From: an uncultured Bacteroidales bacterium
GTDB lineage: Bacteria; Bacteroidota; Bacteroidia; Bacteroidales; Paludibacteraceae
Reading direction: 5' to 3'
Length of the DNA stretch: 55,324 bases
NCBI GenBank assembly: GCA_900320865.1
Contig: ONTT01000011.1
Span: forward strand, 1 to 55,324
The position numbers and the translations under genes were made by a program. The notes under the pieces were generated by a model. The model saw only the letters and a program-made list of their open reading frames with translations, was not told the origin of the DNA and made no database searches. Every line of letters begins with the position of its first letter. Position 1 is the first letter of the stretch. Below, in pieces: positions 186-54,925 of the stretch.

Positions 186-305
186 ATGGAAGAATTAAAT
201 TTTGCTCAACTTAAATGCCCCTTTTTTTTGAGCACACCTCCTAAAATCGGTTACGGGTTACGGGTTACCGGTTATGGGTTACGGGGGATCGGCTTTTTAC
301 TTTGA
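186..305 (+). other. Possible 39-codon ORF in a short transcription unit
   Basis: An ATG at 186 opens 39 codons ending with TGA at 303-305. It lies between promoter P1 (-7 box ending at 151) and an intrinsic terminator (325-353). The heptamer array at 249-283 is read in frame as repeats of Gly-Tyr-Gly-Leu-Arg-Val type. Nothing else supports translation. The unit could equally be a small RNA of about 190 nt or a spurious ORF. Confidence 0.2.
249..283. repeat. Heptamer array, GGTTACG x5
   Basis: Five consecutive 7-bp units (GGTTACG, GGTTACG, GGTTACC, GGTTATG, GGTTACG) lie in the intergenic region upstream of ssb. This is one of 27 arrays with the same 7-bp period in the window. Confidence 0.9.
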
Positions 306-324
306 GCGAAACGGTCTTTCTACT

Positions 325-353
325 AAAAAATCGCTCTCGTGCGATTTTTTTTT
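325..353 (+). terminator. Intrinsic terminator between P1 unit and ssb promoter
   Basis: AAAAAATCGC (325-334), loop TCTCGT, GCGATTTTTT (341-350) plus further T. The perfect 10-bp stem with a T run would end transcripts from P1. The ssb -33 element (351-354) begins within its T tail. Confidence 0.7.
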
Positions 354-382
354 GCATATGTCAAAAAAAAGCAGTAACTTTG
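351..382 (+). promoter_or_regulatory. ssb promoter
   Basis: TTTG (351-354), 20-bp spacer beginning CATATGTC, TAACTTTG (375-382). Transcription would start near 388, giving a leader of about 50 nt before the ssb ATG at 440. Confidence 0.8.
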
Positions 383-439
383 CAGCGCAAAAATTTTTGA
401 ACGAACGCATTACTAACAACAAACAATTCATTTAATCTT

Positions 440-1894: not shown

Positions 1895-1971
1895 GCTATT
1901 TATGTTTAGTACAAAATTCTAAGATTCGTACGGTTCTTTAAGTTTTATACAAAACTTGCCAGGATGCCTTG

Positions 1972-1999
1972 TGAATTGTAAATTATAAATTGTAAATTG
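1972..1999. repeat. Heptamer array, TAAATTG x4, holding the GT4 start codon
   Basis: Units TGAATTG, TAAATTA, TAAATTG, TAAATTG. The TTG of the last unit (1997-1999) is the only plausible start codon of the downstream glycosyltransferase, so the array sets its translation start. Confidence 0.85.
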
Positions 2000-3058
2000 A
2001 AAGTCCTCTTTCTCACACCGTGGTATCCTTCAAAGAAGGATGAGATGTCCGGTCTCTTCGTGCGCAAGCACGTGGAGGCCGTTCGTGCACAAGGGGTAGA
2101 GGTACGCGTGATCTTCGCTGAGTCATGGCGCGAGACGGGACGGCAATGGAAGGCCTTGCGGCGCGAAGGATGGATACCGGATGTGGTGCAGCTGAATGTG
2201 ATTCAGAAGCAGGGCCTGTTGGCTCTATGGTTGAAGAAACGCTATGGGATTCCGTATGTGATCGTAGAGCACTGGAGTGGTTATCTGCCGGAGAACGGGA
2301 TGTTTAAGCGGCTGTCGGCGATCAAGAAACGGATCTATCGCCGTATCGCCGCGCAAGCGGAACAGGTGCTTTGCGTGAGTCAGCGGTTGCAGCAGGCCAT
2401 GCAGGACTGTGGCATCCGGGCGCAGCAATGGGGACTGATTGATAATGTGGTGGATGGGTTTTTCTTCGAAAAAGTAGAAAGTAAAAAGACAAAAGTAGAA
2501 AGTAAAAAGACAAAAGTAGAAAGTAGAAAGACTCTGCTGCATGTGAGTTGTTTTGACGAACGGGCGAAGAATGTGAAGGGATTGTTGCGGGCCGCGAAGA
2601 TGCTGAGCGAGAAACGGCAAGACTGGAAATTGGTACTGGTAGGAACGGGAGCGGACTATGAGGACGTTCGTGCGTTTGCAGACACGTTAGACATACCAGA
2701 AGGATTGCTGGAATGGACAGGTGAGTTGACGCCGAGAGAAGTGGCGGAGAAGATGCACGAGGTCGATGCGTTTGTGCTGAGTAGCCGATATGAGACATAC
2801 AGCGTCGTGTTAGCGGAAGCCGCAGCAGCAGGGTTACCCATACTGAGCACTCCGGTTGGTATTGCAGAAGGAGTCGCAGATCTGATTGTACCACAAGAGA
2901 TCGCACAGAACAAACCGGGCACTTTCGCTGAGTTTATGGAAGCCATCTGCTTTCAGCCGTCAGAAGTCAGAAGTCAGGAATCAGCACGGTTCAAGGCAGA
3001 GACAATAGGCAAGAAACTGGTAGATATCTATGATAGCTGTTTGCATCGCGACATATAA
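1997..3058 (+). CDS. Glycosyltransferase family 4 protein
   Basis: A GT-B fold glycosyltransferase (GT4) that would move a nucleotide-sugar-derived sugar onto a glycan or lipid acceptor. The N-terminus MKVLFLTPWYPSKKDEMSG is the typical acceptor-domain opening. The donor domain follows, with LVLVGTGADYEDVRA and the E-x7-E pattern ETYSVVLAE near residue 265. The start is TTG, placed within a heptamer array; no ATG gives the conserved N-terminus. Residues about 159-179 are an insertion of three KVESKKT-type heptapeptides encoded by nine 7-bp DNA units between the acceptor and donor domains, a tolerant linker. A second array (2959-2986) lies near the C-terminus. It overlaps the next glycosyltransferase by 29 bases, implying coupled expression. 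Confidence 0.88.
   Translation: MKVLFLTPWYPSKKDEMSGLFVRKHVEAVRAQGVEVRVIFAESWRETGRQWKALRREGWIPDVVQLNVIQKQGLLALWLKKRYGIPYVIVEHWSGYLPENGMFKRLSAIKKRIYRRIAAQAEQVLCVSQRLQQAMQDCGIRAQQWGLIDNVVDGFFFEKVESKKTKVESKKTKVESRKTLLHVSCFDERAKNVKGLLRAAKMLSEKRQDWKLVLVGTGADYEDVRAFADTLDIPEGLLEWTGELTPREVAEKMHEVDAFVLSSRYETYSVVLAEAAAAGLPILSTPVGIAEGVADLIVPQEIAQNKPGTFAEFMEAICFQPSEVRSQESARFKAETIGKKLVDIYDSCLHRDI
2471..2533. repeat. In-frame heptamer array in GT4 gene, 9 units
   Basis: Nine 7-bp units with a 21-bp super-period: AAAGTAG, AAAGTAA, AAAGACA, the same three again, then AAAGTAG, AAAGTAG, AAAGACT. Total length is 63 bp, so the reading frame is kept and 21 residues are added (KVESKKT-like, three times). Confidence 0.95.
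2959..2986. repeat. In-frame heptamer array in GT4 gene, GTCAGAA x4
   Basis: Units GTCAGAA, GTCAGAA, GTCAGGA, ATCAGCA encode a Ser-Glu-Val-Arg-Ser-Gln-Glu stretch close to the C-terminus of the glycosyltransferase. Confidence 0.85.
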
Positions 3059-7738: not shown

Positions 7739-8437
7739 ATGATGGACGAATTTTTCAGCAGAAGTGAAGCTTTATTGGGTGCTAAAGCCATGGAAGCCCT
7801 GCGCGCTAAGAAGGTGATCATCTTCGGAGTAGGGGGAGTGGGTTCCTATGCTGCAGAGGCATTGGTTCGTACGGGTCTGACTCACCTGACGATCGTGGAT
7901 GGGGATACTGTACAGCCGAGTAATATCAATCGACAATTGCCAGCCACGCGGGCGACGATGGATATGCCGAAAGTGGAGGTGCTCAAAGAACGGTTGCTGG
8001 AAATCAACCCGGAGGCGGAGATAAAGGCGATAGCGGAGATGATTAATGGCGAATGGTTAATGGCGAATGGATTAGAGGGGTATGACTTTGTAATTGATGC
8101 CATCGATAGCGTGAATGATAAGACAGACCTTATTATAAACGCGACGCGCGCACGCGTGAAGATATTCAGCAGTATGGGGGCCGCATTACGGCTCGATCCG
8201 ACGAAAGTAACGACGGGTGAGTTAATGGATATCAAAGGCGATGCACTAGCGAAAGCCGTACGGGCACGCATGAAGAAGTTAGGCGTTAAGCCGTATAAAA
8301 AAGTACGCTGCGTCTATTCGAGCGAACAGGCGCAGCGCTGTGAGACACGAGGGAGTCTGATGCAAGTGACGGCGGTGTTTGGCTTAACACTCGCATCCCT
8401 CGTCATTTCCGATATTACAAACCAAGCGAAGCTTTGA
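7739..8437 (+). CDS. tcdA: tRNA threonylcarbamoyladenosine dehydratase
   Basis: An E1-like ThiF/MoeB-family enzyme that uses ATP to cyclise t6A to ct6A at position 37 of ANN-decoding tRNAs. The nucleotide-binding GVGGVGSYAAEAL sits at residues 30-42, followed by DGDTVQPSNINRQ (adenylating site) and VIDAIDSVNDKTDLI. At 232 residues it is near the family length. Residues about 101-113 (MINGEWLMANG region) are encoded by a heptamer array (8043-8070) and look inserted in a surface loop before the conserved Asp strand. The 3' end overlaps the convergent phosphomutase gene by 23 bases. Confidence 0.92.
   Translation: MMDEFFSRSEALLGAKAMEALRAKKVIIFGVGGVGSYAAEALVRTGLTHLTIVDGDTVQPSNINRQLPATRATMDMPKVEVLKERLLEINPEAEIKAIAEMINGEWLMANGLEGYDFVIDAIDSVNDKTDLIINATRARVKIFSSMGAALRLDPTKVTTGELMDIKGDALAKAVRARMKKLGVKPYKKVRCVYSSEQAQRCETRGSLMQVTAVFGLTLASLVISDITNQAKL
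8043..8070. repeat. In-frame heptamer array in tcdA, x4
   Basis: Units TTAATGG, CGAATGG, TTAATGG, CGAATGG encode the NGEWLMANG stretch of the protein. Confidence 0.85.
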
Positions 8438-22200: not shown

Positions 22201-22261
22201 GTCCCGAGAACTGAGAGAACGCATCAAACAATCGATGGAGAAAAACGTTCGAATTAAATGA
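19250..22261 (+). CDS. AsmA-like envelope protein
   Basis: A 1003-residue protein anchored by one N-terminal membrane helix (about 6-32), with a large periplasmic body of repeated beta-strand units. The opening TARLTAIAHQVADQYVTCEYELDEVEL and the repeated VKGRIKGKA-like strands fit the AsmA/TamB/YhdP group, which form grooves thought to move lipids between membranes. Residues about 700-717 (SQES, AESQ repeats) are encoded by seven 7-bp units (21350-21398) and look like a low-complexity insertion between two domains. The gene is coupled to the preceding lipoprotein and ends 31 bases before the M3 peptidase start. Confidence 0.85.
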   Translation: MKRVLIITGWSLLGLFGAIIIALSIACYLIFTPARLTAIAHQVADQYVTCEYELDEVELTYFSTFPYFGVSVKDACLINPMEGAQSDTLVAVPELLVSLKLIDAIHGNICIKRFHLRDATANIYIAADGTTNFDVFKSEDDEEEEEDEGGWQLKSVRWEEDLKVSARHLSFVDEKDTITASLDEASIVLASQKRDELDGARLDLSAQHVSATLKGEEYAQDLELRLHLPVYYKSLEHVYIDKAKLQVNDFGLLLDGEAGTPDLSSGVYTCDATVSTDGAWQIQEILALVPERFKASLKDIKVDGLMALEANAKGTYADSIMPMITAHMELKDGQGAYKPLPYTLRDLQLDADARLDLNKQQPSTVTINKLSAKTKESRIAAKGKVEDLLEDMLLDLHLDIDANLPDFAYFMPKEMDLKGRTKGKANAKIRLSDLSEMRLEKGTIDADLTLTDIAYAMDSMYATLPHTKAKIFIPNKNPSRKSVNWACVDLDTKQVDFSMDTTINAALGASMIRIEAANVLNNEQDYFASIHTASLDGRFEDIHADLTNAELEAYIVGGKKMSAKIQTDALQAEMGEELMAKTEALHIEAAARYNSKEENLLLQWNPRLKIHLKNGEVRMPERLPEPVYIPSIEFAYSNKEMTIANSRIELGNSDLNIKGNVRHIGKWFRHKKILEGELDIVSDHCDANQLMAWFSADEETSQESGAESQESKAESQEELTSTPEQNTPDSTKEIEPFMVPLDVDLALNTNLKEVEIFNQVAKDLKGGIFMQEGNLILDEVGFVCRAAKLQLTAMYRSPRRNHLYLGMDYHMIDVDIDELLTMIPNLEEMVPMLSSFKGAAEFHLAAETYLNSQYQPKMSTLRGAASLTGKDLVVLDGETFDKISKLLLFKKKTENKIDSINAELTIYKNQIDVYPLCVQMDNYMVALGGRHNTNMTFDYDINVLSPIYLGVNVSGSIDDLQIKLAKCKFAQDFKPHWYQKVDNQSRELRERIKQSMEKNVRIK
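21350..21398. repeat. In-frame heptamer array in the AsmA-like gene, 7 units
   Basis: Units AGCCAAG, AGTCGGG, AGCCGAG, AGTCAAG, AGTCAAA, AGCCGAG, AGTCAAG. The array encodes Ser-Gln-Glu-Ser and Ala-Glu-Ser-Gln repeats. Confidence 0.95.
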
Positions 22262-22285: not shown

Positions 22286-22292
22286 TTTAGTT

Positions 22293-36037: not shown

Positions 36038-36070
36038 TCGCAATGGACGATGTTTTTAGGGTGATCAGAT

Positions 36071-37052: not shown

Positions 37053-37070
37053 TGGTCATTGGTAATTGCT
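37036..37070. repeat. Heptamer array joining radical SAM and MBL genes
   Basis: Units AATTGGT, AATTGGT, CATTGGT, CATTGGT, AATTGCT. The MBL start codon (37050-37052) and first base of the radical SAM stop (37070) lie in the array. Confidence 0.9.
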
Positions 37071-38128
37071 CATTTCCAGCATTCTTGACAGATTTGAGGG
37101 GTTTGGCGGAAGGCAGCTTGACGGAACGCGAGTGCTTTGTCATTCGTGAAGAGTTCGCGCAGCGGCTTTTCCATAATATTTCCGTACGCAAAAGCGTGCG
37201 ACTTATCGTAACAACAGGGCAGGACATCGCCATTCGTCGTGATGACCGCTCCGCTCCATACACGGAAACAGCCTTTGCGCAGTTTGCGACGATGGTACTT
37301 ACCGTCTTTGCCCAAGATATACCGGCTGTATTTCGGGTTCGTGGGCATCAGAGGATGGCCATTCTGATAGTCGTAGAGTTGGGCGGTCTTAAAAACCAGT
37401 CGATCGGCTCCGAAGAGCTTGTACTGCTGTTTGAAAGCACGCCATTCGTGTTCGTTAGATTTTAATCGTAGAACTTGAAGTTCTATTAAAATTTTTGATT
37501 TTTGATTTTTGATTTTTGATTTTCGAAGATACTGCAGTGCGGCTTTGGTTTTTTCGAGTGATCCGCCGATGCGATAGGCGCCATAGGATTCTTGGGTAAG
37601 TCCGTCCATGGAGATGATAATTCGGTTCAGTCCGGACTGCACGAGTGCTTCAGCCAATTCGGGTGTCATGGCCTGCGAATTTGTACTGACGATGGTATAT
37701 AAGCCCGCTTCGTGCGCTTCGCGAATCATTTGCGGAAGGTCTTTGTTGAGCAGGGGTTCGCCCTGGAAATAGAACTGGATGACGGATGCCTGCTGCTTCA
37801 CTTCGTTCAGCACGCGATGCCAGACGGAAAGTGGCATCATTGGTAATTGGGGATTGGTGATTGGTGATAACCCTTCTCGGCGGAGGCCGCTCTTCCCGTT
37901 CCGTCGGGAAGACGCTCCGGGTGATTGGTGATTGGTGATTGGTGATTGGTGATTTTCACCTCTTCCGACGGGACACTCGGGGCAGCGGAGTTGGCAGATA
38001 TTCGCGGGTTCGACGGAGATGAAAAGGGGCATATGCGAAATACGCACCAAGCCGAAGCGGCTCAGCGCGTAATTCCAATAGCAACGCAAAGCGTTAATGA
38101 ATCGCGATTTTGTTAACACGACGCTCAT
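37070..38128 (-). CDS. Radical SAM/SPASM domain protein
   Basis: A radical S-adenosylmethionine enzyme. The [4Fe-4S] motif C-x3-C-x2-C is in ICQLRCPECPVG. The C-terminal SPASM domain has further cysteines (KGCFRVWSG, VLPCCYDK, QICQECW). Such proteins modify peptides, tRNAs or other small molecules; the target is unknown. The ATG at 38128 is chosen; a longer ORF to 38320 runs antisense-like through rpiB, and a GTG at 38119 is also possible. Two blocks of heptamer-encoded sequence (37838-37955 and 37491-37525) are inserted in frame, one directly after the cluster motif. It overlaps the end of rpiB by 35 bases. Confidence 0.88.
   Translation of the reverse strand: MSVVLTKSRFINALRCYWNYALSRFGLVRISHMPLFISVEPANICQLRCPECPVGRGENHQSPITNHQSPGASSRRNGKSGLRREGLSPITNPQLPMMPLSVWHRVLNEVKQQASVIQFYFQGEPLLNKDLPQMIREAHEAGLYTIVSTNSQAMTPELAEALVQSGLNRIIISMDGLTQESYGAYRIGGSLEKTKAALQYLRKSKIKNQKSKILIELQVLRLKSNEHEWRAFKQQYKLFGADRLVFKTAQLYDYQNGHPLMPTNPKYSRYILGKDGKYHRRKLRKGCFRVWSGAVITTNGDVLPCCYDKSHAFAYGNIMEKPLRELFTNDKALAFRQAAFRQTPQICQECWK
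37491..37525. repeat. In-frame heptamer array in the radical SAM gene, ATTTTTG x5
   Basis: Four ATTTTTG units and one ATTTTCG encode RKSKIKNQKSKI on the minus strand. Confidence 0.9.
37838..37955. repeat. Composite in-frame insertion: two ATTGGTR arrays around a GC-rich palindrome
   Basis: Units at 37838-37865 (CATTGGT, AATTGGG, GATTGGT, GATTGGT) and 37921-37955 (GTGATTG x4, GTGATTT) flank a GC-rich 55-bp core holding CTTCCCGTTCCGTCGGGAAG. The whole 118-bp block encodes a loop rich in NHQSPITNHQ and SRRNGKSGLRREG, placed just after the iron-sulfur motif. Confidence 0.9.
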
Positions 38129-40530: not shown

Positions 40531-40543
40531 CATCGTCAAAACT

Positions 40544-40620
40544 ATTGGTGATTGGTAATTGGTGATTGGTAATTGGTAATTGGTGATTGGTAATTGGTAA
40601 TTGGTGATTGGTAATTGGTG
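40544..40620. repeat. Longest heptamer array, ATTGGTR x11
   Basis: Eleven perfect ATTGGTA or ATTGGTG units in the order G A G A A G A A G A G, between the pRiA4b-like gene and the four-helix-bundle gene. It faces an inverted array at 40970-41004, so the two flank that gene like terminal inverted repeats. Confidence 0.97.
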
Positions 40621-40625
40621 ATTTT

Positions 40626-40991
40626 ATGGATAAGGAGTTGATATTGGATAAATGTATAAAATTCTCAATCAAAATAAATAAATTGAGAAGGTTTCTTTGC
40701 GAAACTCAACACGAGTATAACAACTCCGACCAAATCCAACGGTGCGGTACAAGCATTGGAGCCAATTACAGCGAAGCTTGCGATGCGGAAACAAAAGCAG
40801 ACTTTGTACATAAACTCGCAATATCCCAAAAAGAAGCCAATGAAACCATATACTGGCTGAAAGTGCTGTATGGATCAGAACTTATATCTTTGGAAGTTTA
40901 TAAAGATCTGATGACAGATGTTAATGAGTTATATAAAATCATAACTGCAAGCATTAGAACAGCCAAGTTGTCAATAACCAATGACCAATAA
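40626..40991 (+). CDS. Four-helix-bundle protein (S23/IVS type)
   Basis: A 121-residue helical protein of the S23/23S rRNA intervening-sequence family (DKELILDKCIKFSIKINKLR, SIGANYSEACDAETKADFVHK, SQKEANETIYWLKVL). Relatives are encoded in inserts of 23S rRNA genes, and a structural cousin (Avd) binds the reverse transcriptase in diversity-generating retroelements; here neither rRNA nor a reverse transcriptase is near. The ATG at 40626 follows six bases after the 11-unit heptamer array; an upstream start at 40608 would be array sequence. Its last codons (SITNDQ) and stop are made of the inverted array at 40970-41004. The link between protein and arrays is an inference from position. Confidence 0.88.
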   Translation: MDKELILDKCIKFSIKINKLRRFLCETQHEYNNSDQIQRCGTSIGANYSEACDAETKADFVHKLAISQKEANETIYWLKVLYGSELISLEVYKDLMTDVNELYKIITASIRTAKLSITNDQ

Positions 40992-41004
40992 CCTATGACC
41001 AATA
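40970..41004. repeat. Heptamer array, ACCAATR x5, at S23-miaA junction
   Basis: Units GTCAATA, ACCAATG, ACCAATA, ACCTATG, ACCAATA: the reverse complement of the ATTGGTR type. The array contains the last codons and stop of the four-helix-bundle gene and the ATG of miaA (40995-40997). Confidence 0.92.
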
Positions 41005-42915: not shown

Positions 42916-44472
42916 ATGCTAAGTCCTGATTATATTTTTGAGACCTCATGGGAAGTATGCAACCGCGTAGGCGGAATCTACGCCGTACTCAGTACGCGCG
43001 CCGCATCGATGCAAGCAGAGCACCCGGACAAGGTCTTTTTCTTCGGCCCCGATTTCGGAGCACACAGCGATATCTACTTTAAGGAGGACAAAAATCTTCT
43101 TAAAGATTGGTCATTGGTGATTGGTGATAGGTCATTGGAGATTCCGATTCGTATCGGTAGATGGCAAGTGCCGGGAGAGCCGATAGCGATCCTGCTGAAG
43201 TTCGACGCGATGTGGCCGCAAAAAGACAGCATCTACGCCTGGGCTTGGAACAAATTCCAAGTGCAGAGCCATGCGGCCTATGGTGATTATGACGAGTCGT
43301 GTCTATTCAGTTATACAGCCGGCATGGTGATGGAGAGTTTGTATAACTATCTCACTGGTCTCTATAGAGGCGTTAGGAAACCTAAGTTCTGCATGCATGC
43401 GAACGAATGGCAGACCGCTTTTTCTATCTTCTATCTGGAGGATCATTGTCCGGAGATAGCCACTTTGTTTACCACTCATGCGACGGGTATCGGTCGTTCG
43501 ATAGCCGGAAACGGCAAGCCGCTTTACGACTATTTCGAGGGGTATAACGGCGATCAGATGGCAGCGGAGCTGAATATGGTGAGCAAACACTCGGTGGAGA
43601 AACAAGCGGCTCATTGGGCGGACTGCTTCACTACTGTCAGTTATATCACCGCTCGGGAATGCAAGCAATTGCTGGACAAACCGGTAGATATCGAGACTCC
43701 GAACGGATTCGAACCGACCTTTGTTCCGAAAGGCAAGGAGTTCGATATCAAGCGCGAGAAAGCACGTACGGCACTGCGCAAAGTAGCCGGAGAGAAATTA
43801 GGCGGAGTGGTACCTGAGAATGCATTACTGCTGTGTATTTCGGGGCGACTGGAATGGAAGAATAAAGGTATCGATGCGTTCGCCGAAGCGCTGGATAAGT
43901 TAGCACAAAAGATCTATCATAGCACGCAACCCGAACGCGAGGTGATCGCGTTTGTGATGATTCCATATTTAGACCGCGCTCCTTCGCGCAAGGGTAAAGT
44001 AAGTGCCGTTTTTGTGCCGTATTATCTGGACGGACACGATCCGCTGTTCGGCATGAGTTATTACGACCTGCTGATCGGCATGGACGTGACGGTCTTCCCG
44101 TCGTACTACGAGCCTTGGGGGTATACTCCCCTCGAGTCCTGCGCCTTCCACGTACCGACCATCACAACGTCGCTGGCGGGTTATGGCGAATGGGCGGCTC
44201 GGCAGAAAGAGCAAGGCGGCGTAGTAGTTATCGATCGCAACGACAGCAACTTCAACGAAGTGACCGAGCGCATCGCGGATGCACTCTTCCGCTTCTCGCA
44301 TCTGAATGCGGAGGAAACGGAGAAAGCACGCAAAGCCGCTGCCGCCGTAGCGAAGAAAGCCGACTGGAAGCACTTCTTCAAATATTATCGCGAGGCCTAT
44401 TCCATCGCACTTACCAAAGCCGCAGCCCGCAATTCCAAACCCAAGAAAACAACCAAACGTAAAACAAAATGA
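42916..44472 (+). CDS. Glycogen synthase, GT3-like
   Basis: Makes alpha-1,4-glucan from a nucleotide sugar. The N-terminus IFETSWEVCNRVGGIYAVLS is the eukaryote-like glycogen synthase (GT3) signature that Bacteroidetes share. THATGIGRSIAGNGKPLYDYF, VETPNGFEPTF-like and the catalytic YYEPWGYTPLESCAF regions follow. At 518 residues it is shorter than the yeast enzyme. Residues about 64-75 (DWSLVIGDRSLE) are encoded by a heptamer array (43105-43139) and lie in a surface loop. The C-terminal tail is basic (SKPKKTTKRKTK). The stop overlaps the C69 gene (ATGA). Confidence 0.9.
   Translation: MLSPDYIFETSWEVCNRVGGIYAVLSTRAASMQAEHPDKVFFFGPDFGAHSDIYFKEDKNLLKDWSLVIGDRSLEIPIRIGRWQVPGEPIAILLKFDAMWPQKDSIYAWAWNKFQVQSHAAYGDYDESCLFSYTAGMVMESLYNYLTGLYRGVRKPKFCMHANEWQTAFSIFYLEDHCPEIATLFTTHATGIGRSIAGNGKPLYDYFEGYNGDQMAAELNMVSKHSVEKQAAHWADCFTTVSYITARECKQLLDKPVDIETPNGFEPTFVPKGKEFDIKREKARTALRKVAGEKLGGVVPENALLLCISGRLEWKNKGIDAFAEALDKLAQKIYHSTQPEREVIAFVMIPYLDRAPSRKGKVSAVFVPYYLDGHDPLFGMSYYDLLIGMDVTVFPSYYEPWGYTPLESCAFHVPTITTSLAGYGEWAARQKEQGGVVVIDRNDSNFNEVTERIADALFRFSHLNAEETEKARKAAAAVAKKADWKHFFKYYREAYSIALTKAAARNSKPKKTTKRKTK
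43105..43139. repeat. In-frame heptamer array in the glycogen synthase gene, x5
   Basis: Units GATTGGT, CATTGGT, GATTGGT, GATAGGT, CATTGGA encode DWSLVIGDRSLE. Confidence 0.9.
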
Positions 44473-46202
44473 AACAGCTTAGACTATTAGCAGCCCTGCT
44501 GCTTCTTTCACCTTTCACCTTTCACCTTTCAACTATACAGGCGTGTACCAACTTCCTCGTGGGCAAAGACGCCTCGGTAGACGGCAGCACAATGATTTCG
44601 TATGCCGCTGACTCGTACGGCATGTACGGTTTTCTGCATTTCTCTCCTGCCGCAGACTATCCTGAGGGAGCCGTTCGTGAGGTGTACGACTGGGACACCG
44701 GGCGTCCGCAAGGGTCGATTCCTCAAGTAGCGCACACCTACTCGGTAGTAGGTAATATGAACGAGCATCAAGTGACGATAGGGGAGACCACTTGGGGTGG
44801 CCGTGAAGTGCTGTGGGACACCGTCGGTGTGGATTATGGCAGCCTGATTTATATTGCGCTGGAGCGCAGTAAGACGGCTCGCGAAGCCATCGAATGGATG
44901 ATCTCGCTGGTGAATGAGTACGGTTACGCATCGGAAGGCGAGACCTTCTCTATCGGCGACCCGAACGAAGTATGGATGTTGGACCTGATCGGGAAGGGTC
45001 CGGGTAAGAAAGGTGCAGCGTGGGTAGCTGTTCGTATTCCGGATTATGCCATTGCCGCTCATGCTAATCAGTCGCGTATCACGACGCTTCCTATCGGACG
45101 CAAAGTGAAAGTAAGCAGCAAGGTAGCCAAGGAGCAGAAACGGCTGGAGAAGAAACTGAACTGCGTATGCAACGGCGACTGGATGTGGGATAAAGAGGTG
45201 ATCTCTTTGGCACGCGAGAAAGGTTTCTTCCGCGGGGAGGACAAAGACTTCTCCTATCAGGCGGCTTATAACCCGTTCGATTTCAGCGGTTTATATGTAT
45301 GCGAGGCACGCGTATGGTCATTCTTCAACCATTTCGAGAATATGGAGGCGTACTACGACTATGCTACCGGCACCACCTTCCGCGAGACGAACGGAAAGGA
45401 CGAAGGCGAGCATATGCCGCTGTGGATCGTTCCGAATCGCAAAGTGAGTGTACAGGACCTCAAGGAATGTATGCGCGATGAATACAAAGGTACGCCGTTG
45501 GATATCACGCAAGGAACGGACGCCGGTCCATGGAACAGCAAACTGCGTTATGGAGGATTGGGATTCAAAGTAGCTGCAGAAGGGACGACGGACACGCTTC
45601 AATACTGGTATGAGCGCCCGACGGCTACACAACAGACAGCCTGGTCGTTTATCGCCCAGATGCGGTCGTTTGTGGACCCGAAAATAGGCGGTATCTTCTG
45701 GTTCGGTGTGGACGATGCAGCTTGCAGTTGCTATACCCCGATGTATTGCCGGATTAATCATATTCCGGAGTGCTTTGCGGAAGACAATGGCGATAGTTTT
45801 ACTTTCTCGCCGACCAGCGCCTGGTGGACGTTCAACATCGTGGCCAACTGGGCCTACACCAAGTATAGCCGCATGTATCCGCATATTCGCGAACTGCAAT
45901 TGGCTTGGGATGATAAATTCAATATGCAGGTTCCCGGCGTAGATGCACAAGCCGCCGGGCTGAACGAGGAAGAGGCTCGGGCATTCCTGACTTCCTATTC
46001 CTGCTCGCAGGCAGAGAACCTCGTAGCGGACTGGCAGCGCTTGTATATCTACCTCGTCACGAAGTTCATCGACGGACAAGAGCGCAAAGAAGAGAACGGA
46101 CAGTTCAAGCGCAACCAATACGGACACAGTTGCGGTCCGAACCGCTTGGCGTTCCCGGAAGAGTTCTTACGCAAAATAGCACCGGAGATCACGCATGAGT
46201 AA
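44469..46202 (+). CDS. C69 family dipeptidase
   Basis: A secreted Ntn-hydrolase dipeptidase. The catalytic cysteine (about residue 26) is exposed when the signal peptide is cut before CTNFLVGKDASVDGSTM. The following EVYDWDTGRPQ, GETTWGGRE and MDLIGKGPG-like stretches fit PepD/C69 enzymes, and at 577 residues it matches the Bacteroidetes type. The signal peptide hydrophobic core continues into SPFTFHLST, which is encoded by a heptamer array (44506-44533). The gene overlaps the glycogen synthase stop by 4 bases and ends at a strong terminator. Confidence 0.92.
   Translation: MKQLRLLAALLLLSPFTFHLSTIQACTNFLVGKDASVDGSTMISYAADSYGMYGFLHFSPAADYPEGAVREVYDWDTGRPQGSIPQVAHTYSVVGNMNEHQVTIGETTWGGREVLWDTVGVDYGSLIYIALERSKTAREAIEWMISLVNEYGYASEGETFSIGDPNEVWMLDLIGKGPGKKGAAWVAVRIPDYAIAAHANQSRITTLPIGRKVKVSSKVAKEQKRLEKKLNCVCNGDWMWDKEVISLAREKGFFRGEDKDFSYQAAYNPFDFSGLYVCEARVWSFFNHFENMEAYYDYATGTTFRETNGKDEGEHMPLWIVPNRKVSVQDLKECMRDEYKGTPLDITQGTDAGPWNSKLRYGGLGFKVAAEGTTDTLQYWYERPTATQQTAWSFIAQMRSFVDPKIGGIFWFGVDDAACSCYTPMYCRINHIPECFAEDNGDSFTFSPTSAWWTFNIVANWAYTKYSRMYPHIRELQLAWDDKFNMQVPGVDAQAAGLNEEEARAFLTSYSCSQAENLVADWQRLYIYLVTKFIDGQERKEENGQFKRNQYGHSCGPNRLAFPEEFLRKIAPEITHE
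44506..44533. repeat. In-frame heptamer array in the C69 signal peptide, TTTCACC x4
   Basis: Units TTTCACC, TTTCACC, TTTCACC, TTTCAAC encode SPFTFHLST at the signal peptide end. Confidence 0.9.
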
Positions 46203-46209: not shown

Positions 46210-46234
46210 GCCTCTCGCTCGAGAGGCTTTTTTT
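46210..46234 (+). terminator. C69 gene terminator
   Basis: GCCTCTC (46210-46216), loop GCTC, GAGAGGC (46221-46227) and seven T. Confidence 0.9.
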
Positions 46235-46289
46235 ATTGGTCATTGGTAATTGGTCATTGATAATTGATAATTGATAATTGGTCATTAGA
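46234..46289. repeat. Heptamer array, ATTGGTR/ATTGATA x8, between convergent genes
   Basis: Units TATTGGT, CATTGGT, AATTGGT, CATTGAT, AATTGAT, AATTGAT, AATTGGT, CATTAGA. It starts at the terminator T run and reaches the stop codon of the minus-strand barrel gene. Confidence 0.92.
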
Positions 46290-47061: not shown

Positions 47062-47093
47062 CAAAATTACAAAAATTCCATGAATTATGCAAA
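47062..47093 (-). promoter_or_regulatory. Promoter of the beta-barrel gene
   Basis: Minus strand TTTG (47090-47093), 20-bp spacer, TAATTTTG (47062-47069). The ATG lies only 10 bp from the -7 box. Confidence 0.75.
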
Positions 47094-47119
47094 TTTTCAA
47101 TTTTCAATTTTCAATTTTC
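47092..47119. repeat. Heptamer array, AATTTTC x4, between divergent genes
   Basis: Four AATTTTC units sit where the -33 element of the MATE gene promoter would be expected (-7 box TAACTTTG at 47132-47139). Confidence 0.9.
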
Positions 47120-47131
47120 AATTATTTTTTG

Positions 47132-47154: not shown

Positions 47155-48624
47155 ATGACCTATTCGTTTCGCACATATTTGCCGTATTACAAACGCAACT
47201 TGCAAGTGGCGTTCCCCGTGATGCTTACCCAATTAGGTGCGGCGATGGTTGGTTTGGCGGACTCTATTATGGTCGGTCACTATGGCACAACGGATTTGGC
47301 GGCGGTGAGTTTCTCCAACGCCATCTTCTTCACCGTCATGGTCTTCTCCATGGGTGCATTGATGGGTATCACGCCGCTGGTAGGACATGTGCATGGACGA
47401 TTGGAGAAACTGCTGCAGCAAGGAACGACGGATGAGGAGATAGCCCATAAACATGAGCAAATCAGTTCGTATCTTGCGAATGGCCTTGTCTTTACCGCGC
47501 TCGTCAGCATTCTCTCCTTGGCTTTGTTGGTGCCGTGCATCCCATTCCTCGACTATTTCGGGCAAGAACCCGATGTCTCCGCATGCGCGCGCCCGTACTT
47601 TATTTTAATTGTGCTTTCGATCATTCCGTTCCTGCTATTCTGCTTCTCCAAGCAGTTCTTGGAGGGGCTCGGAAACACCTTCGTGGCAATGATGATTACC
47701 GTCGGGTGCAACCTGCTCAATATCGGCCTGAACTGGGTTCTTATCTTCGGCCATTGGGGGGTTCAACCCATGGGAGCAGAAGGAGCAGGATGGGCAACGC
47801 TTATTGCGCGACTTCTCATGCCGGTTTGTTTCTTTATCGCGATGGCATGCAAAACCGAATGGCGGCGATATCTTCAGTCCATCCGGCGATGGATGATTAC
47901 GCGGCGCGAAGTGGAGCACTTGATAGCCCTCGGAACACCTATCGGTTTGCAGTCTTTTGCGGAGGCGTTTCTCTTCACGGCTTCCTTCGTCATCATCGGA
48001 TGGATCAGTAAAGAAGCGCTTGCGGCGCATCATATAGCGAACCAGATGTGCGACTTAACCTTCATGCTGGCATTGGGTATCGGTTCGGCAACTACCATCC
48101 GCGTCTCGCATCAATTAGGCAAAGGGGATCTGCAAGCTGTACGGATGGCGAGCCATGCATCGGTGCATCTATGCCTGCTGATGAATACCATAGGAGCGGC
48201 TATTATGATCTTCGGAAGAAAGTATATACCCTATATCTTCACCGACGACCCCGAAGTTATTCCCATCGCTTCGACCTTACTGCTCATCGGAGGACTTTTC
48301 CAATATGCGGACGGACTGCAGTGCATCGGTGCCGCTATGCTGCGCGGCATACAGGATGTACGCGTACCGATGCGTATCGCCCTCTTCGCCTATATTGCCG
48401 TCGCCCTGCCGCTGGGAATATACTTAACCTTCTATTACCCCCTTCCCTTCAGGGAGGGGCTGGGGGTAGGCTCCCTCGGACTCGGCGCCAAAGGGATGTG
48501 GTTGGCGTTTATCATCGCACTCGCTATCCCTGCCGTGCTCTTCCATATACGGTTTAACAAGCAACTAAAACGACTAAAATATGAAATCACCAATGACCAA
48601 TCACCAATCACCAATCAGCAATAG
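47155..48624 (+). CDS. MATE family efflux transporter
   Basis: A multidrug/toxin exporter with 12 membrane helices that uses a cation gradient (RNLQVAFPVMLTQLGAAMVG and LADSIMVGHYGTTDLAAVSF at the start, LIALGTPIGLQSFAEAFLF mid-protein). The ATG at 47155 follows the -7 box; an ORF to 47080 includes the intergenic array. Between helices near the C-terminus the stretch PLPFREGLGVGSLG is encoded by a palindromic GC-rich repeat (48437-48470). The last residues (ITNDQSPITNQQ) come from a heptamer array that also begins pepD. Gene end and pepD start overlap by 44 bases. Confidence 0.93.
   Translation: MTYSFRTYLPYYKRNLQVAFPVMLTQLGAAMVGLADSIMVGHYGTTDLAAVSFSNAIFFTVMVFSMGALMGITPLVGHVHGRLEKLLQQGTTDEEIAHKHEQISSYLANGLVFTALVSILSLALLVPCIPFLDYFGQEPDVSACARPYFILIVLSIIPFLLFCFSKQFLEGLGNTFVAMMITVGCNLLNIGLNWVLIFGHWGVQPMGAEGAGWATLIARLLMPVCFFIAMACKTEWRRYLQSIRRWMITRREVEHLIALGTPIGLQSFAEAFLFTASFVIIGWISKEALAAHHIANQMCDLTFMLALGIGSATTIRVSHQLGKGDLQAVRMASHASVHLCLLMNTIGAAIMIFGRKYIPYIFTDDPEVIPIASTLLLIGGLFQYADGLQCIGAAMLRGIQDVRVPMRIALFAYIAVALPLGIYLTFYYPLPFREGLGVGSLGLGAKGMWLAFIIALAIPAVLFHIRFNKQLKRLKYEITNDQSPITNQQ
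48437..48470. repeat. GC-rich palindromic interspersed repeat, copy 2
   Basis: CCCTTCCCTTCAGGGAGGGG followed by CTGGGGGTAGG. The reverse complement aligns with the copy at 27552-27579. It encodes PLPFREGLGVG in a loop of the MATE protein. Confidence 0.75.
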
Positions 48625-50062
48625 CAAAGCTGTCTTCGACATCTTTGCAGAGATCTGCAAAGTCCCCCGCCCCTCGAAACATGAGGAACAAATCAGTAAA
48701 TGGTTACAGGATTTCGCCGCAGCCCATCAGATCGAGTGCATCGCGGATGAAGCGATGAACGTCATTATGCGGGTTCCGGCTACAACCGGATACGAAAACC
48801 ATGAGGGCGTCATCCTGCAGGCGCACATGGATATGGTAGCCGAGAAAGACGGGAATGTGCAGCACGATTTCATGCGTGATCCGATCGAGACCTACGTGGA
48901 TGGCGAGTGGCTCAAAGCCAAAGGAACCACCCTCGGTGCCGACGACGGAATCGGTATTGCGATGGCACTTGCCGCTATCACCGATCCGAACCTGCCGCAC
49001 CCGGCTATCGAGTGTCTTTTCACGGTAGACGAAGAGACCGGACTGACCGGCGCAATGAAACTGCAGGATGGCATGCTCAAACATAAACGCCTCATCAATA
49101 TCGACTCCGAGGATGACGGCCAGATCTTCATCGGCTGCGCCGGTGGCATCGACACCCTCGCCAAGATGCATTATGAGCCCCAAATCCTAAATCATAAATC
49201 TCAAATCATAAATGCAATCCCAATCCGCTTGAGCGTATCGGGATTGCTCGGCGGCCACTCCGGCGATGATATCAACAAAGGTCGCGCTAACGCTAATCAG
49301 CTCATCGTTTGGTTCTTAGCACGTATCTGGCCGCAAACGGAGGTACAACTGGCCTCTATTAACGGAGGAAACCTCCGCAATGCCATCGCGCGGGAAGCAG
49401 AAGCGGTCATCGCGATACCTATGGCGTACAAAGAGCAGATTCGTATCGAATGGAATCATTTCGTAGCCCAGATGGAAGGCGTCTTCGGCGAAGTGGAAAA
49501 AGACATGCGTCTTGAACTCGAGACTTGCGATATGCCGGAGGTATTCATCCCTGCCGACAAAGCGTATCGCCTCGTCATGGCACTTTGCGAATGTCCGCAC
49601 GGCATGATCGCCATGAGCAAAGACATACCCGGACTCGTCGAGACCTCCACCAACCTCGCCTCCATCAAGATGAGAGAGGGCTATATCGAAATCAACACTT
49701 CGCAGCGATCTTCTATTGAGGCAAGCAAGCATCATCTCAAGTGGGCAGTAGAACAAGCTTTGTCCTTAGCCTGCGATGAGGTCACACACGGTGACGGCTA
49801 CCCGGGTTGGGCTCCGAATCCGAAATCGGAACTGCTGGAGGTGGTGAAGAAAGCATACACCGATTTATTCAAAGCTGAACCGAAAGTGCTGGCTATCCAT
49901 GCGGGACTGGAGTGCGGTTTGTTCCTCGAGAAATACCCGTATCTCGATATGGTTTCCATCGGTCCGCAGATGTACGGCGTTCACTCCCCCCAGGAACGAC
50001 TCTCTATCCCCTCCACCGAACGATGCTACTCCTGGCTCTGCCAAATCATCAAGACGATGTAA
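48581..50062 (+). CDS. pepD: Aminoacyl-histidine dipeptidase (PepD-like, M20)
   Basis: A cytosolic zinc dipeptidase of family M20 that splits Xaa-His and other dipeptides. The metal site is in LQAHMDMVAEKD (about 86-97) and TTLGADDGIGIAMALA (about 114-129), with the catalytic Glu pair in TVDEETGLTGA. At 493 residues it is normal. The first dozen residues (MKSPMTNHQSPISN) come from a heptamer array and precede the conserved FDIFAEICKVPRPSKHE. A second array (49181-49215) encodes QILNHKSQIINA inside the protein. The start overlaps the MATE gene. Confidence 0.93.
   Translation: MKSPMTNHQSPISNSKAVFDIFAEICKVPRPSKHEEQISKWLQDFAAAHQIECIADEAMNVIMRVPATTGYENHEGVILQAHMDMVAEKDGNVQHDFMRDPIETYVDGEWLKAKGTTLGADDGIGIAMALAAITDPNLPHPAIECLFTVDEETGLTGAMKLQDGMLKHKRLINIDSEDDGQIFIGCAGGIDTLAKMHYEPQILNHKSQIINAIPIRLSVSGLLGGHSGDDINKGRANANQLIVWFLARIWPQTEVQLASINGGNLRNAIAREAEAVIAIPMAYKEQIRIEWNHFVAQMEGVFGEVEKDMRLELETCDMPEVFIPADKAYRLVMALCECPHGMIAMSKDIPGLVETSTNLASIKMREGYIEINTSQRSSIEASKHHLKWAVEQALSLACDEVTHGDGYPGWAPNPKSELLEVVKKAYTDLFKAEPKVLAIHAGLECGLFLEKYPYLDMVSIGPQMYGVHSPQERLSIPSTERCYSWLCQIIKTM
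48586..48620. repeat. Heptamer array, ATCACCA x5, in the MATE-pepD overlap
   Basis: Units ATCACCA, ATGACCA, ATCACCA, ATCACCA, ATCAGCA. They are read in one frame as the MATE C-terminus and in another as the PepD N-terminus. Confidence 0.92.
49181..49215. repeat. In-frame heptamer array in pepD, x5
   Basis: Units CAAATCC, TAAATCA, TAAATCT, CAAATCA, TAAATGC encode QILNHKSQIINA. Confidence 0.9.
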
Positions 50063-52052: not shown

Positions 52053-52085
52053 TTTCATTTATTAATACTAAACGATTTAAAGTTT

Positions 52086-53189
52086 ATGAGAAAAACATTT
52101 ACTTTATTCATTGCCCTGATGGCGCTGTGCGTCAGCTCATGGGCAGTTACATGGGGTCAGGCAACAATCCAAAGTATTGATGTCGACAGAACGACCACTT
52201 CAACTCAAACGGTTGATGAAATCTCCGTTACAGCCACTGCTCCAGATGAGTCAGAATGCTGGTTTGGAAGTTCTAGCATCTCCATCAAAGGGAATGGAGA
52301 GATTATTTTTTCCACGGCATCCGGTCAATTAACAAGCGTTGTTATTACCTGTCCTGGTTCCGTGAACATCACACACTTGGTAGGTTTAGGCACCGAGTGG
52401 ATTTGGGACGACAATACTCTGGAACTTACATGGACAGGTAGTGCTGCATCTGTCGCTTTAGAGTGTGATGGTTCGTCTGGCGGTATTTATTTGGGAAATA
52501 TTTATTCTATCGATTTTACCGTGGTAGGTGGTGGTTCAGCATCGTCGGTTACATGGAACGAAAATGATGTAGACAATGTAGAACTATATCTGCCCACTAA
52601 TTACGTCGGCCAAACAACATCAGCTAGTCCAATAAAAAATATTACTGCCTCATTAACAAGAACCTCAGCTGAAAGTAATGATTGCCAATTCTCTAATAAA
52701 ATATTTCATTTAGTTAACAATGGCAATGTTACATTTACATCCTCTATTGGAGATATATCTCGTATTGTAATCACTTGCAGTGGAGTATATGGTGAATTTC
52801 AGGATATTACTCAGAGTCTTCCGACAGGTTGGGAATATAATGAGACAGCTCAAACCTTTACATGGGATGATACCCCTGCTAGTGCTGTTAGTATCTCAGG
52901 AAATTTATATTTCGCTATTACATCCATCGTGTTTACTCTGGATAATGGTGGCTCTGCTCCTGCTTTGGATGGAACTATTACATGGGAGGCGCGCCAAGTA
53001 AGCCATGTGGATCTCTCATACTATGCTACATCGCCTGTTATCAAAAACATTATTTTGACGAAAGCTGACAATACTGGCTCTTGCTCTTTCAGTGATAGAC
53101 ATCTTTCTATTACCAATGATGCATCATTAGATGCTCTGATCTGGGGAGTCCAAGTGATCTTTCCGACGGTTGGTCTTCTCAAACGGTAG
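52086..53189 (+). CDS. T9SS surface protein, N-terminal part (frameshifted)
   Basis: The first 367 codons of a secreted protein: a signal peptide (RKTFTLFIALMALCVSSWA), then beta-sandwich repeats with the pattern GNGEIIFSTASGQLTSVVIT ... TWTGSAASVALECDG (first) and NNGNVTFTSSIGDISRIVIT ... TFTWDDTPASAVSISG (second). The third repeat breaks at about 53125-53133: the strand after SITNDASL is missing and the frame shifts, so the ORF ends in unrelated residues at 53189. The missing piece continues in another frame in the next entry. The gene is probably inactivated, or the assembly lost about 40-45 bases. Confidence 0.8.
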   Translation: MRKTFTLFIALMALCVSSWAVTWGQATIQSIDVDRTTTSTQTVDEISVTATAPDESECWFGSSSISIKGNGEIIFSTASGQLTSVVITCPGSVNITHLVGLGTEWIWDDNTLELTWTGSAASVALECDGSSGGIYLGNIYSIDFTVVGGGSASSVTWNENDVDNVELYLPTNYVGQTTSASPIKNITASLTRTSAESNDCQFSNKIFHLVNNGNVTFTSSIGDISRIVITCSGVYGEFQDITQSLPTGWEYNETAQTFTWDDTPASAVSISGNLYFAITSIVFTLDNGGSAPALDGTITWEARQVSHVDLSYYATSPVIKNIILTKADNTGSCSFSDRHLSITNDASLDALIWGVQVIFPTVGLLKR

Positions 53190-53197
53190 CAAAAACC

Positions 53198-54904
53198 TTG
53201 ACGTGGACAGGTGATGCAGAGGAAGTTACTCTCTCCGGAAATATCGGTTGTACCATTTCTTCCATTGAGTTTACCTATACTCCTGCTGCCGCTCCGCATG
53301 TTGGAGAAACAATTGAACAAGCCTACCAATCATACGTAATTACAGGTGCACACACGGCAAAAGTGCCTGCACAATCATTTGGAGGTTCGTTTGCAATCCC
53401 GGAATATGTGGACTACGACGAAGTAAGGTATTATATCACCGAGATAGATGATTATGCGTTCTATAATGAAGATGACCTGTTTGATATAACGGGCGGCGAA
53501 AACATTGCTCGTATCGGTGCACATGCTTTTGAGGGTTGTACCCATATGAGAAGTTTTAGTTTGGATGGTGGAGTATTAGATGAAATCGGTGTTGATGCAT
53601 TCAAGAACTGCAAACTTTTGGCTTACTACGAATCTAATACAACTACTCCTCCCGTACTCGAAAGTGACATATTCGCTGGAGATGAATTGTTGAATCATAT
53701 CCTTATAGATTATTTTGGTGTAGGTGCTTATAAAGAGGCAGCCGTTTGGTCTGCATACGAGTCTATCATTGATTATAGAGGTATAGATGCCAGCGTCGGC
53801 GAGAAATTCTTTGACCTTGTACAAATGTACACCGGATTGTATGAGGTTACTACTCCTGCTACTTATGGTACGCCAGGAGAAGCGAAAGTGGTTCCTTATA
53901 CTTCATATATTAATGACATCTATCCGATTACCCGCACAGGTACACTCGTTATTCCTGAGGACGCAAACTATATGGGTAGTGAATATGCAATAACCGGTAT
54001 TGGCGAAAATGCGTACAAAGATAGCACGCGCTTCAATGCTGTAATGATTCCGCAGCAGGTAACATCTATCGAGGCCGGTGCATTCCTTAACTGCACAGGT
54101 GTGGAGAATGTATATTTCCTATGGGAAAACCCGAATACTATCACTTGGTATGATCGTGACAAAGGTCTTGAGTTTGCAACGGCTACCAGCGGAAAGACAA
54201 AAATCTATGTTCCGAAAGGCAAATTGGCTGCTTATCAGTCATGGGCTCCGTCATGGGCAAGTTGCATGTATGATGTCGAACTCTTTGATGTTGATGTTAC
54301 ACAAGCGGAAGATCCTGATCATTCCGGACGTTTCTATCGTACTTTCTTCGATAGTGAGAACGATTACTTGTTGCCGCCAAGCGTTTGGGCACATGTGGGC
54401 TATGTACAGGACAACGAATTTATTCTGCGTTCTATCGCATACGATGGTCAAATTCTGCCTAAAAACACAGCAGTTGTCCTCGAATCGGAGACTCCTATTT
54501 ATCATTTGATAAAGTCTGAAGGCTCAGCTCCTGCTTATACAGGTCAAAATGACCTCCGCGGAACGGATGTGAATTTAGCTGTAAGTTCGCTGCCTGCTGC
54601 ACAGCAAGACAAAGTCTATGTACTGGGCAAGGAAGCTTGGATTAATAGTGTTCGCCAAGTAGGTATGGGTCTGTACCGCTACACCGGCACAACCTTGGGC
54701 GCACATAAAGCCTATATGATTGTAGGTGGCACTTCCGGTGCTCCTACCCGCGCGCGCTTCCTCTTCAGGCATGAGGACGAAACAACCGGTGTTGAGAATG
54801 TACAAAGTGACAAGGTACAATGTACAAAGATCCTGCGTGACGGCCAGCTGATCATCATCAAGGATGGTAAAGAGTACAACGCTCAAGGTCAGATTGTAAA
54901 GTAA
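53198..54904 (+). CDS. T9SS surface protein, C-terminal part (frameshifted, BspA-like)
   Basis: The frame holding the rest of the protein is open from about 53118: CSDLGSPSDLSDGW leads into TWTGDAEEVTLSG, which completes the third repeat of the preceding ORF. The ATG at 53198 is only the first Met in this frame. A BspA-type leucine-rich region follows (ITEIDDYAFYNEDDLFDITG, IGAHAFEGCTHMRSF, ITGIGENAYKDSTRFNAVMI). The C-terminal T9SS sorting domain ends KDGKEYNAQGQIVK. The linker (NVQSDKVQCTK) before it is encoded by a heptamer array. Base composition is more AT-rich than the housekeeping genes. A surface-exposed adhesin-like role is likely. Confidence 0.8.
   Translation: MTWTGDAEEVTLSGNIGCTISSIEFTYTPAAAPHVGETIEQAYQSYVITGAHTAKVPAQSFGGSFAIPEYVDYDEVRYYITEIDDYAFYNEDDLFDITGGENIARIGAHAFEGCTHMRSFSLDGGVLDEIGVDAFKNCKLLAYYESNTTTPPVLESDIFAGDELLNHILIDYFGVGAYKEAAVWSAYESIIDYRGIDASVGEKFFDLVQMYTGLYEVTTPATYGTPGEAKVVPYTSYINDIYPITRTGTLVIPEDANYMGSEYAITGIGENAYKDSTRFNAVMIPQQVTSIEAGAFLNCTGVENVYFLWENPNTITWYDRDKGLEFATATSGKTKIYVPKGKLAAYQSWAPSWASCMYDVELFDVDVTQAEDPDHSGRFYRTFFDSENDYLLPPSVWAHVGYVQDNEFILRSIAYDGQILPKNTAVVLESETPIYHLIKSEGSAPAYTGQNDLRGTDVNLAVSSLPAAQQDKVYVLGKEAWINSVRQVGMGLYRYTGTTLGAHKAYMIVGGTSGAPTRARFLFRHEDETTGVENVQSDKVQCTKILRDGQLIIIKDGKEYNAQGQIVK
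54799..54826. repeat. In-frame heptamer array before the T9SS domain, x4
   Basis: Units TGTACAA, AGTGACA, AGGTACA, ATGTACA encode VQSDKVQCTK at the start of the sorting domain, as at 27842-27876. Confidence 0.85.
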
Positions 54905-54925
54905 TGTGTATTGTGTAATGTATAA
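54905..54925. repeat. Short heptamer array, TGTGTAT x3
   Basis: Units TGTGTAT, TGTGTAA, TGTATAA directly follow the stop codon of the T9SS gene. Confidence 0.6.

Follow-up and report, generated by a model that had tools for sequence, protein, structure and literature searches.

Why should tandem arrays that are built from different units share one and the same period? This question is raised by a stretch of 55,324 nt (contig ONTT01000011.1 of assembly GCA_900320865.1, from an uncultured Bacteroidales bacterium of the Paludibacteraceae), which we call the window and which corresponds to contig 27 of its genome (G000, the own genome below), a draft of 1.97 Mb (1966 kb) that is 82.65% complete. 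A first-pass annotation of this DNA had reported a window-wide system of short arrays with a period of 7 bp, and this observation is confirmed here. We consider it probable that these imperfect heptanucleotide arrays are born, lengthened, homogenised and lost by strand slippage, with recombination of loop alleles and probable ectopic exchange acting in addition.

Period-7 arrays in the window and in the lineage

A census with Tandem Repeats Finder (score 30) gave about 28 distinct period-7 loci in the window, in agreement with the 27 arrays of the first-pass annotation; the ATTGGT-type loci, put there at about eleven, number 11 (27849, 36565, 36668, 37030, 37839, 37920, 40544, 40972, 43106, 46235 and 48585). 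Under a uniform criterion, which asks that 13 of 14 positions be equal at distance p, the window holds 16 arrays of period 7, two of period 8, one of period 3 and none of any other period from 2 to 12, and an alternative threshold of 17/21 gives 20 arrays of period 7 and 0–2 at each of the other periods between 2 and 13. Harmonics appear at periods 14 and 21, and the criterion asks fewer copies of longer units, so that 7 has no advantage over longer periods. No period-7 array appeared at either threshold in ten Markov-2 simulations of the window. The earlier statement that all arrays have a period of exactly 7 bp holds as far as dominance is concerned and does not hold as exclusivity, because two period-8 arrays lie in the window (36062-36092 and 36147-36168) and periods 8, 9 and 11 are above chance in the genome, yet far below 7. 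The pair consists of TGAGCAGA and its reverse complement, facing each other across a GT-rich stretch, and might form a large hairpin.

Figures for the own genome refer to the window plus a 400-kb sample (455 of 1966 kb). The period scan beyond the window that the first-pass annotation had proposed was thus run on part of the genome, and the excess of 7 is present there: the 400-kb sample contains 50 period-7 arrays, against 3, 7, 7, 0 and 6 arrays at periods 6, 8, 9, 10 and 11, which brings the period-7 arrays to 66 in 455 kb. Array density in the window is about twice that in the rest of the sample (16 vs 6.9 expected, p = 0.002), in a post hoc test on a window already singled out.

Densities in relatives mostly rest on 18–100 kb each, all genomes being drafts, and same-genus status is stated for G001-G024 and G041-G116. 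Period-7 arrays were found in 16 of 20 sampled relatives: eight further genomes of the same genus, examined over 100 kb each, carry 1–9 arrays per genome (one in the array-poor G011), and among twelve named relatives (18–28 kb each; Bacteroidales or Paludibacteraceae, with a ruminant source given for three) eight carry arrays, 38 in total, and four carry none. Genome G118, examined over 800 kb, has 60, and 16 genomes of other families of the order yielded a single array in 228 kb in total. Over the window, the own sample and the 20 relatives, 152 period-7 arrays stand against 40, 21, 4 and 44 at periods 8, 9, 10 and 11, and against at most five at each of periods 2–6. The period-7 excess is a property of this lineage, within which it varies. 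As a separate observation, period 11 is above chance in this set and period 10 is not.

Gene calls were made with a simple codon-usage script that missed two array-carrying genes of the window (36360-37052 and part of 37070-38320), and the coding counts of arrays are therefore rough and probably low. By these calls, the 92 arrays classified in the own-genome sample are intergenic in 33 cases, at a gene boundary in 32 and coding in 27, with 12.8% of bases being intergenic, and arrays are over-represented outside coding sequence. The G-rich strand of arrays between aligned genes is the sense strand in 29/43 cases in the own genome and 29/47 in G118, a modest bias; judged by GC skew, it is on the leading strand at 56:28 in the own genome (p = 0.003), 48:35 in G118 (p = 0.19) and 43:25 in eight other genomes (p = 0.04).

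The units, unlike the period, are specific to species. We counted 84 unit types among 212 arrays. Pairs of arrays with the same unit make up 8.2% within one genome (5.7% without the own genome) and 1.8% between genomes (0.9% without the own genome), the value for random heptamers being 0.09%; the excess of identical units within over between genomes is thus 4.5-fold (6.4-fold without the own genome), adjacent arrays being included in these comparisons. Three consecutive ATTGGTN units give 61+41 overlapping matches in the own genome (39 positions among the matches listed, two of them 28 bp apart), between 0 and 33 in each of 24 congeners and no match in 16 genomes from other families, and ATTGGT-like patterns are sporadic in other genera of the family. 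GTTTARN units account for 18 of the 60 arrays of G118. In G139, a genome of the same family and another genus, three consecutive ACTAACN units (GTTAGTN on the other strand) give 66+48 = 114 overlapping matches at dozens of loci, and its congener G169 has no match to this pattern; one array of G139 changes along its length from ATTAACC to ACTAACC. This dominant unit came to light through the reversed-pattern controls, which gave no match in the own genome, 1–7 in four congeners and 73 in G139, the matches being other heptamer arrays. Three genomes each have one dominant unit, and it is specific to the species. Selection for coding-compatible units was considered and rejected: 69 unit types are stop-free in a fraction of 0.71, which does not exceed the 0.75 of random heptamers. 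Units lacking C or G on one strand show a weak effect (0.61 vs 0.51 random).

Turnover at fixed loci and inside enzymes

Comparison of arrays at the same loci, another check suggested by the first-pass annotation and carried out in part, was made between L037 (genome G117) and L040 (genome G118), which are 95.5% identical over 75 kb of long alignments, and gain, loss and unit change were all found. Eight of 10 arrays from G117 stretches and 13 of 101 from G118 stretches could be projected, giving 14 distinct loci; for most of the unprojected G118 arrays the G117 counterpart stretch lies outside the comparison. With classes assigned by eye, five loci are identical or differ by one substitution, two have small changes, and one differs by 14 bp, which is exactly two GTTTAGA units. 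The remaining six show replacement, gain, loss or rewriting, and one of these (L040 26602) has flanks that are only 78/85% identical. A second of the six shows a concerted change, in which the TGAACGA copies of L037, spaced 8 bp, are TGAAAGA in L040, and at a third L040 is 33 bp longer, with CATTTAC units beside a terminator-like hairpin that are missing in L037. Empty sites, also proposed as a check, exist at fixed loci, as does rewriting.

Two of the replaced arrays of the close pair are inside murF, in frame. We aligned 33 MurF rows (the 30 best of 101 genomes plus L037, L040 and the own genome) and labelled loops as empty or filled by eye; the reading frame is open in 33/33 rows. Loop 2 (EAF...YILGAMREL) is empty (KG-type) in 17 rows and filled with period-7 units in seven (AAATCAC twice, CACTCAA, GTCAGAA, CAATCAT, CACCAAT and GGCCAAC), with period-8 units in two and with other sequence in seven, and loop 1 has four period-7 and two period-9 fillings. 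A tree built without the loop columns, with strong support on 2 of 30 inner branches, requires at least 11 changes at loop 2 and at least six at loop 1. The sisters L084 (filled) and L087 (empty) differ at loop 2, and their branch is one of the two strongly supported. L084 shares an identical loop peptide with the more distant L079, from which we infer short-tract recombination. The own MurF loop exceeds that of L076 by exactly seven residues, i.e. three heptamers. An AlphaFold model of the own MurF (25-row alignment; mean predicted local distance difference test score, pLDDT, 79), whose closest solved relative is E. coli MurF (1gg4), has its longest segment under pLDDT 50 at residues 297-310, predicted to lie within the array-coded loop between helix 283-295 and strand 314-318.

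In the dipeptidase of the window (closest structure 3mru) the flanks of the array-coded loop are nearly invariant in 10 orthologues and the loop differs from the window's in each of them, that of L064 being close to it and those of L065 and L066 resembling each other. Altogether 23 of the 92 own-sample arrays are inside open reading frames (ORFs) for which both protein flanks could be matched in relatives, a single relative being the evidence for 13 of these arrays. Among the ORFs are a hydrolase with the metallo-beta-lactamase fold, a radical-SAM/SPASM protein (three arrays), a glycogen-synthase-like protein and a 462-aa ORF that has two arrays and is presumably MiaB-like by its motifs; two cases are weak, namely a 104-aa ORF (L048 8396), whose sole match contains a stop, and a 192-aa ORF (L057 14126). 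In MurF, the dipeptidase and the radical-SAM protein, the loops that hold arrays are empty or filled by a different heptamer in relatives.

Strand slippage and its alternatives

We propose that strand slippage in the course of DNA synthesis, strongly biased towards steps of 7 nt, would cause the birth, growth, homogenisation and loss of arrays. Loops of 7 nt would be expected to escape mismatch repair, which is itself present: the own genome passes the curated cut-off for mutS, as do 94 of the 101 genomes searched, and any match is found in 99, some perhaps being MutS2-like. If mismatch repair corrects short loops but leaves those of 7 nt, the presence of mutS fits the near-absence of periods 2–6. 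Arrays would survive where the harm is small, that is, in the gaps between genes, at the ends of genes and, if the strand read is free of stops, in surface loops of enzymes, and three units, being seven codons, would make an in-frame loop. New unit variants would spread to neighbouring units by concerted evolution, array-bearing loop alleles may pass between species by short-tract homologous recombination, and ectopic exchange between arrays of the same period probably draws the arrays of a genome toward one dominant unit.

Array edges and interiors bear on the slippage proposal. Outside 203 arrays, in-phase similarity decays (0.43, 0.34, 0.30, 0.32, 0.28 and 0.27, vs 0.26–0.29 off phase), and within long arrays the similarity of units falls with lag (0.81, 0.77, 0.74 and 0.70). 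Because edges decay, similarity falls with distance and whole units change, local growth with homogenisation is favoured over insertion of finished arrays; the period would be inherited while the unit drifts, and a common period with different units is therefore accounted for. Several facts weigh against this reading as a whole. The occurrence of one unit at dozens of unlinked loci and its lack in a congener is unexplained by independent slippage, ectopic copying finds no direct sign in that mosaics common to loci are no longer than in the reversed-order control (17.29 vs 17.01 in G000; 13.78 vs 14.27 in G118), both MurF loops are quite different within the close pair, which needs recombination or a fast reset and not stepwise drift, and slippage gives no account of why 7 stands so far above 8. 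Direct copying of array segments between loci was rejected because its excess over shuffles vanished once the control kept local homogeneity (reversed unit order): the mean length common to loci was above all 40 unit shuffles (17.65 vs 14.72–17.13 in G000; 14.57 vs 12.24–14.43 in G118), and the maximal length was similar to them (35 vs a mean of 35.7; 30 vs 28.1).

The first-pass annotation had favoured a common process that spreads or writes heptamers. A genome-wide process preferring period 7 stands, as does the presence of one species-specific unit at many unlinked loci; a writer inserting finished arrays is not borne out. A dedicated process, either an unknown enzyme or templated repair, that copies a genome-specific heptamer word into many genic and intergenic sites appears unlikely to us, even though the dominant units of three genomes (ATTGGTN in G000, GTTTARN in G118 and GTTAGTN in G139), the aforementioned excess of identical units within genomes and the replacement at the same site by different units in the 95.5% pair would suit it. 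The edges of arrays decay gradually, mosaics common to loci show no excess, inspection by eye of 29 ATTGGT-type arrays revealed no common flank or end motif, and reverse transcriptase (RVT_1) proteins, a possible writer, are not consistently present (4 of 14 genomes: 3 of 9 array-bearing ones, the own included, and 1 of 5 array-poor ones; the assemblies are incomplete). It is improbable, if somewhat less so, that some unknown templated process actively carries a genome-specific word to dozens of unlinked sites, in-frame loops of essential enzymes among them, so that species are periodically rewritten; if true, such periodic rewriting with an own word would be a heritable mechanism inserting short peptide loops into housekeeping proteins. 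A mobile element (miniature inverted-repeat transposable element, repetitive extragenic palindrome or Rickettsia palindromic element) is disfavoured by the lack of common ends, the flanks of the same 29 arrays having no shared ends or inverted repeats by eye, without statistics.

Could the arrays instead be under selection? That the heptamers are selected binding sites for a 7-bp-periodic DNA- or RNA-binding protein, as was proposed for TAACTGA repeats, would agree with the clustering near gene starts and stops and with the dominance of one unit in a genome; we hold it very unlikely, considering that many arrays are inside genes (27/92 in coding sequence by the script), that units vary by locus and between relatives at one site, and that neither position nor strand is constant, the G-rich strand bias being only modest. 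Hardly more probable is the view of in-gene arrays as adaptive loop diversifiers, serving phase variation or surface change: loops do vary strongly between nearly invariant flanks, but most of the proteins named are enzymes that one would expect in the cytoplasm (MurF, the dipeptidase and the radical-SAM protein), all 33 MurF rows are open, and intergenic arrays have the same period. An artefact of metagenome-assembled genomes is scarcely credible; the sampled genomes are drafts and arrays are hard to assemble, but separate assemblies show the pattern again, with the reading frame kept, the loops the same and the flanks intact, and arrays are nearly lacking in assemblies from other families of the order. 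Equally remote is a loss of mismatch repair leading to general microsatellite growth, in favour of which we found nothing and which is disfavoured by the aforementioned presence of mutS and near-absence of periods 2–6. In three genomes (G081, G089 and G108), the match of mutS to the model breaks near position 590, and the open frames, at 919–959 aa, exceed the usual 870–890, perhaps owing to an insert in MutS itself.

Known heptamer repeats and the arrays of the window

Heptamer repeats as a class are already known, from cyanobacteria, Xanthomonas, Beggiatoaceae and a few Bacteroidetes. The tandem heptanucleotides of Calothrix, which we take to be the short tandemly repeated repetitive (STRR) sequences of cyanobacteria, are likewise dispersed in the genome; there are three of them (cited in PMC4692102), and the likeness is by description and not by unit sequence. 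Heptanucleotides were reported to be more common than any other long simple repeat in most bacteria rich in repeats (Mrazek 2007, cited in PMC4679880 and PMC4692102). The present arrays share with these the period-7 excess, the genome-wide scatter and the proposal of slippage, and differ in being imperfect, in forming species-specific unit families and in often occupying in-frame positions within conserved enzymes; the cited passages do not name this clade. Three features of heptanucleotide repeats are found here, namely a period-7 excess beyond chance, over-representation in non-coding sequence and change of unit number (1/14 loci).

The GGGNATC heptamers of Xanthomonas and Nostoc (Rehm et al. 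2015, PMC4692102), in Nostoc 68% intergenic and partly intragenic, resemble the present arrays, as far as the cited text goes, in their degenerate position, their many loci near stops and starts and a unit number variable between relatives. They differ in that the arrays here have no G-tract units, that the dominant unit changes between related species and that one protein loop is filled by different heptamers; GGGAATC, the sole N variant counted, leads 1/212 arrays, and GGGGATT and GGGGACT lead none. The TAACTGA repeats are reported from Beggiatoaceae, Cyanobacteria and five Bacteroidetes including Paludibacter propionicigenes (MacGregor 2015, PMC4679880), so that the earlier claim of novelty, which knew of no described Bacteroidales counterpart, is too strong. 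They too are direct heptamer repeats near gene boundaries with a patchy distribution, but are described as one fixed unit, whereas many occur here; TAACTGA leads 0/212 arrays, and no TAACTGA dimer is present in the window. Heptamer repeats are also carried by the hmw promoters of Haemophilus (PMC2651432). Rickettsia palindromic elements, described as about 150 bp long and in frame inside unrelated metabolic or housekeeping genes (PMC10969869), are comparable as in-frame repeats in unrelated metabolic genes and differ in being palindromes instead of tandem heptamers. In the part of the open-access literature that was searched, we found no description of heptamer-for-heptamer replacement in one enzyme loop or of a dominant heptamer changing species by species within one group, and both the swapping of enzyme loops and the species-specific bursts of units look new.

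For the frequency of period 7 among bacterial tandem repeats, the sources cited propose one answer, the length of DNA held by the polymerase (Mrazek et al., quoted in PMC4679880 and PMC4692102). The present clade, with genomes of at least 101 species, combines a marked excess of period 7 with rapid turnover among close relatives, dominant units that differ in several genomes and at least one array-poor member (G011, 1 array in 100 kb), and because of these the question becomes testable by comparison and reporter assay. The arrays also show how short peptide loops can be brought in frame into conserved enzymes, apparently being swapped between species, and this bears on annotation, on the reading of hypervariable loops as adaptive and on protein evolution.

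Table 1. Heptanucleotide arrays of the window, with strand and genic context
Array	Position	Strand	Context
GGTTACG	245..285	.	intergenic by script gene calls
AAATTGT	1968..2004	.	start of GT4 glycosyltransferase ORF
AAAAAGT-type with 21-bp higher-order repeat	2469..2532	+	inside GT4 glycosyltransferase ORF
GTCAGAA, peptide CFQPSEVRSQESAR	2949..2987	+	inside same GT4 glycosyltransferase ORF as 2469..2532
AATGGCG / ATGGTTAATGGCGA	8039..8070	+	inside ThiF-family ORF
CAAGAGT	21353..21400	+	inside 1003-aa ORF; insert missing in sole relative found, G118 (flanks 79/58% identical)
AATGAAT	22254..22289	+	spans stop of one gene and start of next (M3 peptidase)
unit drifting from TTGAAAA to GAAAGGT	24383..24427	+	over stop codon of M3 peptidase gene
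ATTGGTA	27845..27875	-	near C-terminus of 2683-aa ORF
ATTGGTR	36557..36612	-	in frame, metallo-beta-lactamase-fold hydrolase: PESPIPNHQSPITNHQSPLL vs PEEKVL in relative L124
CATTGGT	36668..36702	-	same hydrolase ORF as 36557..36612
GAAAGGT/GAAAATT	36868..36901	-	same hydrolase ORF: NLSPFNFHLS; in L124 a different repeat-coded peptide, NSQLSIVNSQLS
ATTGGTA/C	37026..37076	-	junction of radical-SAM and hydrolase genes
ATTTTTG (YLRKSKIKNQKSKILI)	37485..37530	-	inside radical-SAM/SPASM protein
ATTGGTG	37837..37869	-	inside radical-SAM protein
ATTGGTG, after CQLRCPECPVGR (GENHQSPITNHQSPG)	37916..37958	-	inside radical-SAM protein; missing in both relatives found, L124 and L139
ATTGGTR, longest array, 11 units	40542..40624	+	
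CAATAACCAATGACC (ATTGGTN on minus strand)	40972..41004	-	
ATTGGTN	43104..43143	+	in frame, glycogen-synthase-like ORF: KDWSLVIGDRSLE vs KDWKAP (L074), KGWKAPH (L066)
CTTTCAC	44499..44539	.	near start of C69 peptidase ORF
ATTGGTN to ATTGATA	46232..46289	.	between convergent genes
AATTTTC	47087..47130	.	between divergent genes, or at start of longer MATE ORF
CACCAAT	48583..48625	+	C-terminal tail of MATE transporter gene and start of dipeptidase gene at once
AAATCAT	49179..49213	+	in frame, aminoacyl-histidine dipeptidase loop; differs from window's in 10/10 compared orthologues
AATGTAC, 4.3 units	54797..54827	.	inside end of ORF 53198-54904
GTAATGT, 3.6 units	54901..54925	.	over end of ORF 53198-54904

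Two further observations concern the relatives. At 21.0-21.1 kb and 26.56 kb of L037, the comparison with L040 shows diverged blocks with TCCCT...AGGGA-type palindromes, which look like a second dispersed repeat family. L034 and L039 are 93% identical over 7.3 kb with little else aligned, which suggests a recombined or transferred segment.

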